Source of the DNA: Oceanithermus profundus DSM 14977 | Lineage (GTDB): Bacteria; Deinococcota; Deinococci; Deinococcales; Marinithermaceae | Assembly (NCBI RefSeq): GCF_000183745.1 | Contig: NC_014761.1 | Coordinates: 1,302,001-1,366,000, forward strand | DNA length: 64,000 nt | Reading direction: 5' to 3' | Part shown: piece after piece, positions 37,781-45,919 of the stretch | Position numbering within the stretch: the first letter of the stretch is position 1 | Layout: each line of letters begins with the position of its first letter | Position numbers and translations under genes: made by a program | Notes under the pieces: model-generated | Databases searched by the model: none | Told to the model about the DNA's origin: nothing | The model's input: the letters and a program-made list of their open reading frames with translations, nothing else

Positions 37781-39553
37781 CTAGCGCAGCGTCGCCCAGG
37801 GAGGCACCCAGAGGAACCAGGTCCGGTAGGGGGTGAGGTCGAGCGCGCGGCCGGAGGCGTCTTCGATGACGAGCCCGCCCTGGATCCTCCAGGTGACGGG
37901 CACCCGCCTGCCGTCGAGGTAGAGCGCGCCGTGCCCCTTGGAGAGGTCGAGCGCGAGGCGGCCCACGTCGTCGATCACGCGCGCGTCGACGCGCAGCACG
38001 GCCACCGCCGTGACCCGGAAGGGCGCGCTGCCGCGCACGATCCGGCCGTTGCGGTACCAGACGTACCCCTGGCCGTCGTAGCGAAACGCGCTGACGTAGT
38101 CGGGGGCGTAGCGCACCTCGACCCGCTCCCCGTCCGGGGCGTCCTCGGGGGGCCGGTAGGCCTTGCCGCTGAGCGTGCGCTTGCGCTCGAGGCGGAGGCG
38201 GGCGAGTTGCTGACGCACCTGCCCGCCCTCCACGTAGGTGTTGTGGGGCGGGCGCCGCTGGGGGTCGCGGCGAAACAGCGGATCGTAGAGGCCGTCGAAG
38301 GTGATCATCTTTTCCCGCTCGATCATCGCCAGCGCCTCGGGGCTGCCGCCCACGTGAAGCAGGACCGCGCCCATCGCCTGGGCGAGGCGCAGGATGTACG
38401 GCCGCGCCGATCGTACCGGGCCCAGCTTGCCCTTCTCGCCGCCCTCGTAGCGGACGAGCAGGCGGGTCACCCCGCCCTCGACGGGGACCTCGTGCACCTG
38501 CACCGCCCAGTCGAGCCCCCACTGGGGGTAGGCGGCGGCGCTGTTGTCGACGGCGACCAGAATGGGCCGGAGGCGCTCGAGCTTGTAGGGCTTCTCGCCG
38601 GGTCCGATGGCGCCGCCCTGCTTGGGCCCCGGTTGCGGGCTCGTCGCGGGAACGGGGGCCGGCGCGGGCTCGCCTCCCGCCAGCGGCAGTGCGGGGGCCG
38701 GGGGCGCGGGCGCGAAGGCGGGAGGGGCGGGGGCCGGTGGCGGGGGAGCAAGAGCGCCGGGCGCCGTCGAAACGGGAGGCGCCCCAACGGGGGCGGCGGG
38801 CGACGCCACGGGCGCGGGCGCCGGGCCTGCCGGCGGGGCCGAGGCGGCTTCGGGGGCCGGGGGAACCTCGCTGGGCACGGCCGTCTCCGGTGCGGCCGCG
38901 GGGGTGGGCTCTGTGGGGACGGGCTCGAGGCCGGGCGCCGCCGCTTCGGGCGCCGGTGCGGGCGGGGTCTCCGTGGCCACGGCGGGCGCTGCGGCCGCTT
39001 CCGGAGCGGTCTCCGGCACCGGTTCGGGAGCGGGCGCGGGCTCGGCCGGGGCCTCGCCGGGGGCGGGCGCCGCGGAGGCCGATGCCGGCTCCACGGCCTC
39101 CGCCGGAGCCGGCGGCTCGGTGGGGGACGCGGCCGGCGGCAGCGGCAGCGGCGCCTCTTCGGCAGGGGGCTGGACGGCCGTTTCGGCCGGTGGCGGGGTC
39201 TCCGGCGCGGCGGTCTCGGGCTCGGGGGCCGGCGCCTCTTCGGGGGCGGCGGCCTGGGGCTCGGGCGGAGGGCTGGGCTCGGAGGGCGTTTCGGTTTCGA
39301 CCGGCGGTTGGGCCAGCGGTGGGGCCTCGGGGGCGGGTTCCGGAGTGGCGGGGGGCGCCTCTTCGCCGGCCACTTGCGCGCCTTCGCCGAGCTCGAGGAG
39401 CAGGTACCCGGTGGCCTCGGGCGGGGGTGGCGTCGGCGTCCACACCAGAAGGACGAAGACGAGGGTCAGGAACGCCGTCGCCGTCAGGGCCAGCAGCGCG
39501 GCCCGGCGCTTGCGCTTCTGTTCGGGGGTGAGGTGGCGCACGCGGCCCGTCAT
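37781..39553 (-). CDS. TonB-shaped anchor-linker protein with C-terminal DUF3048 domain
   Basis: A 590-residue protein with a short basic cytoplasmic tail (residues 1-19), one membrane helix (about 20-42), a Pro/Ala/Glu-rich linker of about 280 residues, and a 270-residue C-terminal domain. That domain shows DUF3048 (YerB-like) signatures: RPILVAVDNSAAAYPQWGLD, EVPVEGGVTRLLVRYEG, LGPVRSARPY and LLHVGGSPEAL. Membrane anchor plus Pro-rich spacer is the plan of TonB or TolA, but the end domain is not a TonB domain. It starts 10 nt after exbD and 26 nt before malQ. The function is unknown. A proton-motive-force-driven envelope role is inference from exbB-exbD. Confidence 0.85.
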   Translation of the reverse strand: MTGRVRHLTPEQKRKRRAALLALTATAFLTLVFVLLVWTPTPPPPEATGYLLLELGEGAQVAGEEAPPATPEPAPEAPPLAQPPVETETPSEPSPPPEPQAAAPEEAPAPEPETAAPETPPPAETAVQPPAEEAPLPLPPAASPTEPPAPAEAVEPASASAAPAPGEAPAEPAPAPEPVPETAPEAAAAPAVATETPPAPAPEAAAPGLEPVPTEPTPAAAPETAVPSEVPPAPEAASAPPAGPAPAPVASPAAPVGAPPVSTAPGALAPPPPAPAPPAFAPAPPAPALPLAGGEPAPAPVPATSPQPGPKQGGAIGPGEKPYKLERLRPILVAVDNSAAAYPQWGLDWAVQVHEVPVEGGVTRLLVRYEGGEKGKLGPVRSARPYILRLAQAMGAVLLHVGGSPEALAMIEREKMITFDGLYDPLFRRDPQRRPPHNTYVEGGQVRQQLARLRLERKRTLSGKAYRPPEDAPDGERVEVRYAPDYVSAFRYDGQGYVWYRNGRIVRGSAPFRVTAVAVLRVDARVIDDVGRLALDLSKGHGALYLDGRRVPVTWRIQGGLVIEDASGRALDLTPYRTWFLWVPPWATLR

Positions 39554-39563
39554 CGCGCCTCCG

Positions 39564-39959
39564 CTAGGGCACCGCGGCCACGGCCACCCGCTTGGCCCCG
39601 GCGCGGCGGATGACGTCCATTACCTGGACCACCCGGCCGTGGGGGGTCTTGCGGTCGGCCCGCAGGATCACCGTGCCCACCGGATCCTGGGCCAGCTCGG
39701 CGCGCAGCGAGGCCAAGAGCGCCGCGTCGTCCACGGGCTCGCCCTTCCAGAAGGCCTGGCCGTCGGCCTGGACGACGACGGTGGGCGCGCCCTCGGGGCG
39801 GGCCTCGCCGCTCGTCGCCTGGGGCAGGTCGATGGGCAGGCCGGTCTCGGGGGTGATGAAGGTGCTGCTGACCATGAAGAAGATCACCAGCAGGAAGACG
39901 ATGTCTACCAGCGGCGCCAGGTTGATGCTGGGCTCGCGCCTACGCCTGCGGTTCGCCAT
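39564..39959 (-). CDS. exbD: ExbD/TolR-family proton channel subunit
   Basis: Single-pass proton-channel partner (131 aa) of an ExbB/TolQ pentamer. The membrane helix carries the conserved proton-binding Asp in LAPLVDIVFLLVIFFM (about residue 19). The C-terminal periplasmic domain shows LPQATSGEA and VILRADRKTPHGRVVQVMD. It overlaps exbB by 20 nt. The partner downstream is a DUF3048 protein rather than TonB or TolA. Confidence 0.93.
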   Translation of the reverse strand: MANRRRRREPSINLAPLVDIVFLLVIFFMVSSTFITPETGLPIDLPQATSGEARPEGAPTVVVQADGQAFWKGEPVDDAALLASLRAELAQDPVGTVILRADRKTPHGRVVQVMDVIRRAGAKRVAVAAVP

Positions 39960-40560
39960 TCCTCACCTCGGCCAGGATGCCCAAGAGCTCTTCCCGACGT
40001 TGCTCGAGCTCGCTGAGGATGTCGTCCACGCGCCCGGCCAGGTAGTGGTAGGCGATCAGCGCCGGGATGGCGACGATCAGGCCGGCGGCGGTGGTGAAAA
40101 GCGCCTCGCCGATGCCGCCGGCAAGCAGCTTGGCCGTCGTCTGCCCCTGGCTGGCGAGCACGTTGAAGGCGCGGATCATGCCGCTCACGGTGCCCAAAAG
40201 GCCCAGAAGCGGCGCCACCTGCGCGGTCACGCTGAGCACACCGAGGCCGCGCGCGAGCCGCGACTCCTCCTCGAGGAGCGCCGCCTTGAGCGCGGCGTCC
40301 ACCGCGGTGACCCCGAAGGGGACCCGCGCCAGGCCCGCGAGCATGAAGCGTCCGAGGGTGCCGCCGTGGGCGCGCGCGGCCTCGAGCGCCACGTCGATCT
40401 GGCCGCGCCGCACCGAGGCGTCGACCTCGCGCATCAACCGTTCGCCGCCGATCTTCTCGCGGCGGAGCGCCAGGTAGCGCTCGAAGAAGACGTAGGCGGC
40501 GTAGAGGGTGAGCAGGAGCAGGAAGACGAGGATCCAACCCCCTTGCTGAAGCTGCAACAT
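39940..40560 (-). CDS. exbB: ExbB/TolQ/MotA-family proton channel subunit
   Basis: Three-helix proton-channel protein (206 aa). The family core is VAPLLGLLGTVSGMIRAFN in the second helix and GEALFTTAAGLIVAIPALIAYHYL in the third. It assembles with ExbD to use the proton motive force for mechanical work at the envelope. TAGGAT (40567-40572) is 6 nt before the ATG, so the three-gene unit exbB-exbD-DUF3048 is probably a leaderless operon. Confidence 0.94.
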   Translation of the reverse strand: MLQLQQGGWILVFLLLLTLYAAYVFFERYLALRREKIGGERLMREVDASVRRGQIDVALEAARAHGGTLGRFMLAGLARVPFGVTAVDAALKAALLEEESRLARGLGVLSVTAQVAPLLGLLGTVSGMIRAFNVLASQGQTTAKLLAGGIGEALFTTAAGLIVAIPALIAYHYLAGRVDDILSELEQRREELLGILAEVRNGEPQA

Positions 40561-42604: not shown

Positions 42605-43819
42605 CTACTTGACGACGCGGGGTACGAGCTCGACGACGCGTTCCTTGCCGCCGCGCACCAGCTTGAGCTTCACCTTCTGGCCGGGCTTGAGCCCGTACAG
42701 GACGGCGCGCAGGTCGGTGATGTCGTAGATGGGGCGGCCGTTCGCCTCCACGATCACGTCGCCGCCGACCCCGAGTTCGAGCGTCTTGCCGTTGGGCAGC
42801 TGCAGGTAGATGTAGTCCGTCGCCCCCTTGAGGCCCGCCTCGGCCGCCGGGCTGTTCTTGTCGACGCTCTGCACGACGAGGCCGTGATCGGGCAGGTCGT
42901 AGCGCTGGCGCACCTGGTCGGGATAGAACTGCACCGGCATCACCGTGACGCCCAGGCGCGGGTTGTTCTTGACGACCTCCTCGGCGGTGACTTTCTTGCC
43001 CGCGCGCATCTCCGGCAGGTACTTCTTGGCCAGGTTGATGGGAATGGCGAAGCCGATGCCCGCGAACTGGGGCACGCCGTTGGGGTTGATGATCGCGGCG
43101 TTGATGCCGATGACCTCCCCGCGCGAGTCGAGCAGCGGCCCGCCGGAGTTGCCGGGGTTGATCGCGGCGTCGGTCTGGATCAGGCGCGGGATCAGCGAGC
43201 TCTCCGCGCCGGGGTTGGTGCGGATCGCGGAGATGATGCCCTCGGTCACGGTGAACTCGAGCCCGAAGGGGTTGCCGATGGCGATCGCCTTCTGCCCCAC
43301 CTTCAGCCGGTCCGAGTCGCCCAGCGGGATGGGGTGCAGCATGCCCTTGTCGGGCACGTCGACCTTGAGGAGCGCCAGGTCCAAGGGCGGCGCCGAGCCG
43401 ATCAGCTTGGCCGGGTAGGCCGTGGGATCCTCGTGGAACTTCACGGTAATCTCGTCCGCGCCCTCGACCACGTGGTAGTTCGTCAGGATGTACCCCTCCT
43501 TGTCGAGGACGAAGCCCGACCCCGTACCCTGACGGGGCGGCTGCACGTAAGGCGCGAAGAAGGGGGCGAAGTCCTCGAAGCCCGGCGGCAGGTTCGGGCG
43601 CACCACCTTGGGCGCCGTTGCCACCGAGACGAAGACCACGCCGTCGCCGTAGGTTTCGACGATTCCGATCGTGTTGCGCTCGTTCTGCAGGTAGGCCTCG
43701 GGTTGGTTGAAAGGTTTGACCTCCCCGGTGGCGCGGGCGCCGGGGAGGTTCCAGGACAACGCGACGGCGGCCACCAGGACGATGCCCGCGAAACCGATCA
43801 GCGACTTTCTCATCGACAT
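42605..43819 (-). CDS. htrA: HtrA/DegP-type serine protease with PDZ domain
   Basis: Exported trypsin-like protease (404 aa) for envelope protein quality control. The N-terminal helix (about residues 6-25) acts as a signal or anchor. The catalytic triad is visible as His in LTNYHVVEG, Asp in PLDLALLKV and Ser in NPGNSGGPL. One PDZ domain follows (LGVTVMPVQF to the end). A good GGAGGTG site lies 8 nt before ATG 43819, so unlike many neighbours this gene has a conventional leader. Confidence 0.95.
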   Translation of the reverse strand: MSMRKSLIGFAGIVLVAAVALSWNLPGARATGEVKPFNQPEAYLQNERNTIGIVETYGDGVVFVSVATAPKVVRPNLPPGFEDFAPFFAPYVQPPRQGTGSGFVLDKEGYILTNYHVVEGADEITVKFHEDPTAYPAKLIGSAPPLDLALLKVDVPDKGMLHPIPLGDSDRLKVGQKAIAIGNPFGLEFTVTEGIISAIRTNPGAESSLIPRLIQTDAAINPGNSGGPLLDSRGEVIGINAAIINPNGVPQFAGIGFAIPINLAKKYLPEMRAGKKVTAEEVVKNNPRLGVTVMPVQFYPDQVRQRYDLPDHGLVVQSVDKNSPAAEAGLKGATDYIYLQLPNGKTLELGVGGDVIVEANGRPIYDITDLRAVLYGLKPGQKVKLKLVRGGKERVVELVPRVVK

Positions 43820-43911
43820 CTTATATGCACCTCCGCATCTAATCTTAGTCTCCTCGTATTAAGTACGCGTGAGGAAGCGGCTGCGCGTCGGCGCGCATGT
43901 ATCCTGGGGTC

Positions 43912-44970
43912 GTGAGGGTATTCGCGATCAACCCCGGTTCGACGAGCACCAAACTGGCCCTCCTGGAGGTCGACGCGTCCGAAGCGCGGCTCCTGGAAGA
44001 GGAGGTCGTGCGCCACGCGCCGGCCCCCAGCCTGGCGGCCGACCTCGAACGCCGGCGCGAGCAGGTCCTTACCCAGGCGCAGGCCTGGGCCCCCTTCGAC
44101 GCCTTGGCCGCTCGCGGAGGGCTCCTGGGCCCGCTGCCCGCCGGCGTCTACGTGGTGGACGAAGCCATGGTGCGCGTCTGCCTGGAGGCCCCGCACGGCG
44201 CCCACCCCGCCAACCTGGCCGCCCCGCTGGCGCTCGAGCTGGCCCGGCGCTACGGCGTGCCCGCCTTCGTGGTGGACCCGCCCACCGTCGACGAACTGGA
44301 GGAGGTGAACCGCATCAGCGGGGCCCCGGGCGTTCCCCGGCGCAGCCGGGTGCACGCCCTCAACCTGCGCTACACCGCACGCAAGGTGGCCGCCGAACTG
44401 GGGGCGCGGTTCGAGGAGGTCCCGCTCGTGGGGGCGCACCTGGGGGGCGGCACCTCGGTGGTGCGCTTCGCCCGCGGGCGCATGGTCGACACCAACGACG
44501 CCCTTTTGGGCGAGGGGCCTTTCAGCCCCAACCGCGCGGGCACCGTTCCCGTCTACGGCGTCATCGAAAAGACCGCCCGCGACGGGCGGCAGGCGGCCCG
44601 CAACTTCTTCGGCCGTGCGTCGGGGTTCAAAGGGCTCCTGGGCACCGACGACCTGCGCCGGGTCGAGGCGCGGCTCGACGAGCCCCAGGTACGTTTGACC
44701 ACGGACGCCTACGCGCTCCAGGTGGTAAAATACATGTTGGGCCTGGCGGCGGGCGAACGTCCGCAAGCCTTCTTCCTCACCGGGGCCGGGGCGCGCTTTG
44801 GCTACGTCGTCCGGCAGATCGAAGCGCGCCTGAGCTGGGCCGCGCCGGTGCACGTGCACCCGGGCGAGTTCGAGATGCAGGCTTTGGCCACGGGGGCGTG
44901 GCGCGCGCTCTCCGGCCAGGAAAATCCCAAGCGGATGGACGAGGTACGCCATGGAAGCGCTGGACTTTAA
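43912..44970 (+). CDS. buk: Butyrate kinase
   Basis: Acetokinase-family enzyme (352 aa) that interconverts butyryl phosphate and butyrate with ATP. Motifs: FAINPGSTSTKLALLE at the N-terminus, HLGGGTSVVRFARGRMVDTND, and FLTGAGARFG. The length and the RRSRVHALN segment favour butyrate kinase over acetate kinase. TATCCT (43900-43905) is 6 nt before GTG 43912. It overlaps the phosphotransacylase gene by 20 nt, so the two act in sequence. Confidence 0.92.
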   Translation: MRVFAINPGSTSTKLALLEVDASEARLLEEEVVRHAPAPSLAADLERRREQVLTQAQAWAPFDALAARGGLLGPLPAGVYVVDEAMVRVCLEAPHGAHPANLAAPLALELARRYGVPAFVVDPPTVDELEEVNRISGAPGVPRRSRVHALNLRYTARKVAAELGARFEEVPLVGAHLGGGTSVVRFARGRMVDTNDALLGEGPFSPNRAGTVPVYGVIEKTARDGRQAARNFFGRASGFKGLLGTDDLRRVEARLDEPQVRLTTDAYALQVVKYMLGLAAGERPQAFFLTGAGARFGYVVRQIEARLSWAAPVHVHPGEFEMQALATGAWRALSGQENPKRMDEVRHGSAGL

Positions 44971-45919
44971 AGAAATCCAACCCCTGCGGGACATGACGGG
45001 CCTGCTCGAGCTCGCCCGCCTGATCGCCCAAGTGGGCGGCCCCAAGAAGGTGGCCGTCGCCGCCGCCGAAGAAGCCCACGTCATCGAGGCCGTCAACGAG
45101 GCGCGCATCGAAGGGCTGGTGCACCCCATCCTCTTCGGCAACCCCGAGCGCATCCGCCGCATCGCCAGCGAGCTGGGCATCCGCACCCAGAACCTCGAGA
45201 TCCGCCACGCCAAGAACCCCGCCGAGGCGGCGGAATTGGCCACCCAGGCCGTCTCCAGCGGCGAGGCCGACATCCTCATGAAGGGGATGGTGCAGTCGTC
45301 CGACTTCCTGCGCGCCGCGCTCAACCGCGAGTGGGGCCTGCGCACCGGCCGGCTCCTCTCCCACGTCCTCATCTACGAGGCCAAGGGCTACGACCGCCTC
45401 TTCTTCATGTCCGACGGGGCCATGAACATCAACCCCGACCTCAAGGCCAAGATCCAGATCGTCGAGAACGCGGTCACGCTGGCCCACGTGCTGGGCGTGA
45501 ACCCGCCCAAGGTGGCGCTCCTCGCCGCGGTGGAGGTGGTCAACCCCGAGATGGACACCGCCGTCGAAGACGCCATCATCGCCAAGATGGCCGACCGCGG
45601 GCAGATCAAGGGAGCGGTCATCGACGGACCCCTCGCGCTCGACAACGCCGTCAGCGAGGAGGCGGCCCGCATCAAGGGCATCAAGAGCCCCGTCGCCGGC
45701 AAGGCCGACATCCTGATCGTCGACAACATCGACGTGGGCAACGTCTTCTACAAGAGCCTGATCTACTTCGCGCGGGTGCGCGGGGCCGGCCTGATCATGG
45801 GAGCGCGCGCGCCGATGGTGCTCACCAGCCGCGCCGACCCCGAAGAGGTGAAGTTCCTCTCGCTGGCCACCGCGGTCATCGCCGCGGAGCGCCTGCCCTA
45901 CGTGCATGAGGCGGTTTAA
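44951..45919 (+). CDS. ptb: Phosphate butyryltransferase
   Basis: Phosphotransacylase (322 aa) that converts butyryl-CoA (or a branched acyl-CoA) and phosphate to the acyl phosphate used by butyrate kinase. Motifs include VAVAAAEEAHVIEAVNEA, ADILMKGMVQSSDFLRA, FMSDGAMNINPDL and DNIDVGNVFYKSL. Together with buk it gives substrate-level ATP or branched-chain acyl-CoA recycling. It overlaps the cytochrome gene that follows by 14 nt. Confidence 0.9.
   Translation: MEALDFKEIQPLRDMTGLLELARLIAQVGGPKKVAVAAAEEAHVIEAVNEARIEGLVHPILFGNPERIRRIASELGIRTQNLEIRHAKNPAEAAELATQAVSSGEADILMKGMVQSSDFLRAALNREWGLRTGRLLSHVLIYEAKGYDRLFFMSDGAMNINPDLKAKIQIVENAVTLAHVLGVNPPKVALLAAVEVVNPEMDTAVEDAIIAKMADRGQIKGAVIDGPLALDNAVSEEAARIKGIKSPVAGKADILIVDNIDVGNVFYKSLIYFARVRGAGLIMGARAPMVLTSRADPEEVKFLSLATAVIAAERLPYVHEAV

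Follow-up and report, generated by a model that had tools for sequence, protein, structure and literature searches.

The exbB and exbD genes of Oceanithermus profundus DSM 14977 are followed by a gene for a TonB-like protein with a DUF3048 (YerB) head, and this trio probably encodes a PMF-driven force transducer whose head is directed at the cell wall. Gene order and sequence motifs make the coupling of ExbBD to the DUF3048 protein appear well supported; from these we infer physical coupling and proton-driven pulling in O. profundus. The genes lie on the minus strand of the window (the whole analysed stretch of 64,000 nucleotides, positions 1,302,001 to 1,366,000 of contig NC_014761.1) in the order exbB, exbD, DUF3048 gene. 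An overlap of 20 bp joins exbB to exbD and a spacing of 10 bp separates exbD from the third gene, so that the tight unit described in the original prediction is exact to the base in coordinates and strand. The features are as follows.

39940..40560, minus strand: exbB, 206 residues (Pfam MotA_ExbB, 3.3e-32)
39564..39959, minus strand: exbD, 131 residues (Pfam ExbD, 5.5e-34)
37781..39553, minus strand: DUF3048 protein, 590 residues, the candidate force transducer (Pfam DUF3048, 2.8e-32)
39440..39499, minus strand: single TM helix of the 590-residue protein, residues 19-38, ALLALTATAFLTLVFVLLVW, preceded by a basic cytoplasmic tail
38597..39439, minus strand: periplasmic Pro/Ala/Glu-rich linker, residues 39-319
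39389..39409, minus strand: D-box-like hydrophobic strand GYLLLEL, residues 49-55, Pro-flanked and shortly after the TM helix
38198..38584, minus strand: DUF3048 N-terminal domain (PF11258), residues 324-452 (Pfam 2.8e-32)
37817..38122, minus strand: DUF3048_C domain (PF17479), residues 478-579 (Pfam 3e-6)

The TonB/TolA plan that had been ascribed to the 590-residue protein is fully present: basic tail, single TM helix, long Pro-rich linker and folded C-terminal head, with exbBD adjoining. The linker comprises about 281 residues, 72% of which are Pro, Ala or Glu (33% Pro), compared with about 115 residues in Escherichia coli TonB (PMC12905483). In TonB and TolA an SxxxH helix docks on ExbB/TolQ, where its Ser and His touch Ser34 and Trp38 of ExbB (PMC12215075), and a D-box strand is captured by ExbD (PMC10907165). 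The TM helix of the window protein corresponds to this SHLS helix; its His is lost in the window's family, and SxxxH is accordingly absent from the window protein and its relatives there. GYLLLEL is the sole such hydrophobic patch within the linker and fits a D-box in position and composition, the strict seven-residue pattern PhiZetaPhiZetaPhiPhiZeta being unmatched.

The same features recur in the motor-linked DUF3048 proteins of other genomes. SxxxH is found in 24 of 31 distinct motor-linked copies from Deinococcota, among them those of the Trueperaceae, and the well-read misses all come from the window's family. All 36 distinct copies of the motor-linked type from Atribacterota carry SxxxN or SxxxH. 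The strongest hydrophobic linker strand lies no more than 40 residues from the helix in 28/29 Deinococcota and 36/36 Atribacterota proteins, and the linkers (range 160-480 residues) have a median length of 360 residues in Deinococcota and 173 in Atribacterota. No motor-linked DUF3048 protein, including that of the window, has a lipobox. Unlinked copies from Bacillota have a lipobox in 45 of 59 cases, a spacer of about 41 residues and no neighbouring exbD (0/59), while those from Patescibacteria are TM-anchored with a spacer of about 39 residues. DUF3048 proteins had been described as lipoproteins of Gram-positive bacteria, which is too narrow for the family as a whole.

Pfam assigns both DUF3048 and DUF3048_C to the end domain, and neither TonB_C nor a TolA domain is found in the trio, in agreement with the prediction of a DUF3048 head in place of TonB. 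A vWA head is likewise absent, Pfam and Foldseek returning only DUF3048/YerB. The structure predicted for residues 308-590 (pLDDT 94.6) has the YerB fold. The only solved relative of the head is Bacillus subtilis YerB (PDB entry 2PSB, E 7e-25), which is also the sole Foldseek match of the predicted structure (TM 0.82, E 4e-22); viral structure models gave no significant fold match. Glu355, Glu359, Arg364, Arg381, Arg384, Tyr386 and Trp555 are invariant over 153 sequences and are all kept in the window protein, the first five falling inside the N-terminal domain. With these residues retained and a fold equal to that of YerB, the head is not degenerate.

For DUF3048/YerB no paper on function and no biochemical data were found in the searchable literature; the YerB gene appears in a list of core sporulation genes (PMC3416734). 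The idea that the head has an active site of the L,D-transpeptidase type is unsupported, the PDB and the viral models containing no fold relative of known function. Extra C-terminal domains fused to DUF3048, which were sought as a hint to the ligand, amount to acidic low-complexity tails in two Halanaerobiales.

The unit is conserved in the order. DUF3048 is present in 38 of 81 Deinococcales genomes, belonging to two families (the window's own and Trueperaceae), and is absent from the remaining families in this set, the Thermus-like ones included. Exactly one ExbD is encoded in 34 of these 38 genomes, the other four being draft assemblies with truncated DUF3048 frames (189-381 residues). The O. 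profundus genome (2,439,291 bp, two contigs) contains one ExbD and one DUF3048 protein by profile search. Of 20 extended Deinococcota loci, 19 have exbB and exbD ahead of the DUF3048 gene, and in four own-family drafts with exbD at a contig end the same TonB-plan protein starts directly after exbD. Such an adjacency of exbD and the DUF3048 gene is far more than chance would give. Protein identity across the Deinococcota trios is about 40%, and the outer flanks hold mqn and malQ genes in the window's genus versus ymdB and PEP carboxylase genes in Trueperaceae; since the flanks differ while the trio persists, the trio itself is the conserved unit.

The single exception among the 20 loci is a second DUF3048 copy, and the same Trueperaceae genome also holds the trio. 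This copy (L051:3086-4894, minus strand) is fused to an HtrA/trypsin-like protease (Trypsin_2 1.4e-28, DUF3048 8.5e-27), with no exbBD next to it.

A DUF3048 profile scan of the genome collection matched Bacillota, Patescibacteria and Atribacterota. In the latter phylum DUF3048 occurs in 46 of 50 genomes and in two forms. The long form (480-540 residues) has the TonB plan and adjoins exbBD in 29 of 36 distinct copies, the other seven lying mostly at contig or locus ends; the order exbB-exbD-DUF3048 was seen in all six loci first read. The short form of about 315 residues is secreted and stands without exbBD. No exbBD was found near DUF3048 in 59 Bacillota and nine Patescibacteria loci, where the protein is a lipoprotein or short-tethered, and among the groups sampled the motor-coupled form is confined to diderms. 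The three genes are thus kept together, in the same order and on one strand, by two families of Deinococcales as well as by Atribacterota, in line with a putative transducer unit. In the free tree the motor-linked proteins of Deinococcota and Atribacterota form separate groups, while a single clade for both phyla is not rejected by the AU test (p 0.56), so that DUF3048 may have been joined to ExbBD once or twice. The Atribacterota exbBD-DUF3048 operon begins, upstream of exbB, with the gene of a secreted TPR protein that is conserved and about 1200 residues long (loci L092, L093, L096, L098, L113 and L130).

ExbB and ExbD have the hallmarks of the motor family: the MotA_ExbB and ExbD domains, the proton-carrying Asp in the ExbD TM helix (Asp19) and the conserved Thr residues of ExbB TM2/TM3 at the pore positions (Thr124 and Thr156). 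The NCBIfam equivalog models for TolQ, ExbB, TolR and ExbD gave only matches far under their cut-offs, and the motor is therefore neither standard Tol nor standard Ton. The ExbB TM1 position predicted to face the transducer helix is Thr18. Thr is found here in ten distinct own-family ExbBs and Ser in the 44 distinct others sampled, and the change is thus seen only in the family whose transducer helix has lost its His; it counts as one event on the tree, though at a predicted contact. In two Thermus-type loci (L168 and L169) ExbB is unusually small, most of the cytoplasmic domain that links TM1 to TM2 being absent.

Partners of the Ton or Tol type were sought and not found. TonB_C is absent from 81 Deinococcales genomes, with a profile that detects its positive controls at 40-75 bits (loci L232-L235), and none is above cut-off in the O. 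profundus genome, which speaks against a canonical tonB elsewhere as the true partner of the motor. The TonB-dependent receptor barrel is absent from 41 Deinococcales genomes, again with controls detected, and the O. profundus genome has no match to an OmpA/Pal domain. All three were accordingly dismissed as hidden partners. In Halanaerobiales exbBD precede the gene of a TonB_C protein and DUF3048 is located elsewhere.

Other Deinococcales, including Thermus, have exbBD followed by a gene for an SxxxH protein of the same plan with an unnamed end domain of about 110 residues (CAVVVELRGL...VWPD...CQAVFIR; loci L168, after exbD from about 6620, L169, L170, L166 and L163), for which Pfam and the PDB gave no match. 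It occurs in nine of the 81 genomes, none of which has DUF3048. Because ExbBD pairs with a different end domain in these relatives, the heads seem to be interchangeable within one order.

Unlinked DUF3048 genes offer a clue to what the head may work on. In Patescibacteria the order is rodA/ftsW-rplY-DUF3048, with rplY in ten loci and RodA/FtsW in seven (L114, L126, L132, L143, L147, L151 and L110). In Clostridia and Halanaerobiales the order is 7TMR-HD-ybeY-DAGK-type kinase-DUF3048-cdd-era (11-13 loci), and some of the kinases are fused to PAP2. Prokaryotic DAGK homologues in Gram-positives are undecaprenol kinases. By association inside conserved gene clusters, the two neighbourhoods suggest a link to the peptidoglycan cycle. 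Force had been proposed to reach the head across the thick Thermus-type envelope; an outer-membrane ligand is unlikely because DUF3048 occurs in bacteria without such a membrane, and its position beside rodA or lipid-kinase genes in Patescibacteria and Bacillota argues for a target on the wall side.

In the model that we favour, a ring of five ExbB subunits and an ExbD rotor would form the usual 5:2 motor, with the DUF3048 protein standing in for TonB or TolA. Its TM helix would dock onto TM1 of ExbB, and the juxtamembrane strand would be caught by the periplasmic domain of ExbD. The long extended linker would keep the YerB-type head at a distance from the inner membrane, and the head would most likely grip the peptidoglycan itself or a protein of wall synthesis, not a TonB-dependent receptor or Pal. 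The motor could then pull on, position or remodel the wall and, via the wall, also the outer envelope. Taken as a separate step, the wall as the load has a little less than an even chance. Several points weigh against the model: the His on which TonB and TolA depend is missing from the window helix, the D-box candidate departs from the strict pattern, the Ser-to-Thr change in ExbB is a single event, the links to rodA and the lipid kinase come from gene context, the YerB fold has no relative of known function, and very long linkers would suit an outer-membrane target too. A bolder version, which we consider rather unlikely, has the proton motor directly energizing peptidoglycan synthesis or remodelling; the YerB head, an ancestral RodA/FtsW accessory, would have moved onto a TonB-type arm, and PMF would drive wall growth and envelope assembly in diderms without Tol-Pal.

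The outer membrane itself could be the load if the trio were a TolA-like tether or constriction machine. Its head would cross the wall, bind an outer-membrane or S-layer-associated protein and pull the membrane inward during growth or division without Pal. In line with this are the TonB/TolA plan, whose linker could span the periplasm, the restriction of motor coupling to diderm groups among those sampled, the absence of OmpA/Pal domains from the genome and the TPR protein that opens the Atribacterota operon (compare Tol systems with CpoB). However, motorless DUF3048 proteins with all invariant residues in Patescibacteria and Bacillota make the outer membrane an unlikely basic target, and the diderm Halanaerobiales hold DUF3048 uncoupled to ExbBD; we regard such a tether as unlikely. 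Much less probable is a Ton system for nutrient import in which DUF3048 would take over the role of TonB_C and open a transporter in the outer membrane that escapes recognition by Pfam. The TonB-type anatomy would allow it, as would the joining of ExbBD to another end domain in other Deinococcales, but the receptor barrel is missing from the 41 genomes searched and no transport genes flank the trio. Moreover, a receptor is present in 13 of 50 Atribacterota genomes, and in the two receptor loci read it adjoins a canonical tonB (TonB_C 70-75 bits) that is distinct from the trio and has an exbBD pair to itself.

Least probable of all is mere co-transcription, with ExbBD driving something else and the DUF3048 protein being an independent membrane-anchored wall protein. 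The argument for coupling is drawn from sequence, and the loss of the SxxxH His in the window's family would fit such an arrangement. Against it stand the single ExbD per genome with no other TonB-type partner found, the coupling motifs in motor-linked and not in unlinked DUF3048 proteins, and the co-variation at the predicted ExbB contact. The wall-directed transducer thus remains our preferred reading.

Compared with known machines, the trio resembles the Ton system in its ExbB/ExbD motor, one-helix transducer, juxtamembrane strand, Pro-rich linker and folded C-terminal head, and SxxxH is present in sister families; it differs in having a DUF3048/YerB head instead of TonB_C, in an order without detected TonB-dependent receptors. 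With Tol-Pal it shares a three-gene motor-transducer unit and a long arm, and in Atribacterota also the TPR protein in the operon, whereas the TolA head is absent, tolB and pal are not in the unit and the genome has no OmpA/Pal domain. Curated Tol-Pal has been placed in Gracilicutes only, and thus in neither Deinococcota nor Atribacterota (PMC12204202). YerB has the two-domain fold and the invariant residues in common with the window head, but YerB-type proteins are lipoproteins that have no motor and whose spacer measures about 40 residues.

The closest parallel is provided by the vWA-headed transducers of Proteobacteria, PVC, Bacteroidetes and Rhodothermaota, presented as a new class by Williams-Jones et al. 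in 2025 (PMC12204202). They too are TonB-plan proteins beside TolQR-like motor genes, with an SHLS helix, a non-TonB head and in some operons a TPR gene (PMC12204202); their head has the vWA fold and that of the trio the YerB fold. The same survey states that further force transducers remain to be discovered, and its text mentions no DUF and no Deinococcota (PMC12204202). The 'new class of energised envelope machine' of the original prediction stands as far as an ExbBD motor with a TonB-plan, DUF3048-headed protein is concerned. Since vWA-headed transducers of the same plan had already been described (PMC12204202), it is better seen as a variant of a recognized kind, and other Deinococcales use yet another end domain.

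As such, the DUF3048 head would extend the short list of loads for ExbBD/TolQR-type motors (TonB_C, TolA and vWA), in Deinococcota and Atribacterota, and shows that the domain at the end of a TonB-type arm can be swapped inside one bacterial order. It would also open a first route to the mechanism of the widespread DUF3048/YerB family: should the motor-linked form depend on PMF, its head has to perform mechanical work, and the rodA and lipid-kinase context indicates where to seek the target.

Two further loci near the trio may be mentioned. About 2 kb away from exbB, and also on the minus strand, lies the gene of an HtrA/Do-type serine protease with a PDZ domain (window 42605-43819). Window 43897-45919 on the plus strand looks by eye like a gene pair for butyrate kinase and phosphotransbutyrylase, which would be unexpected in a Thermus-like heterotroph.
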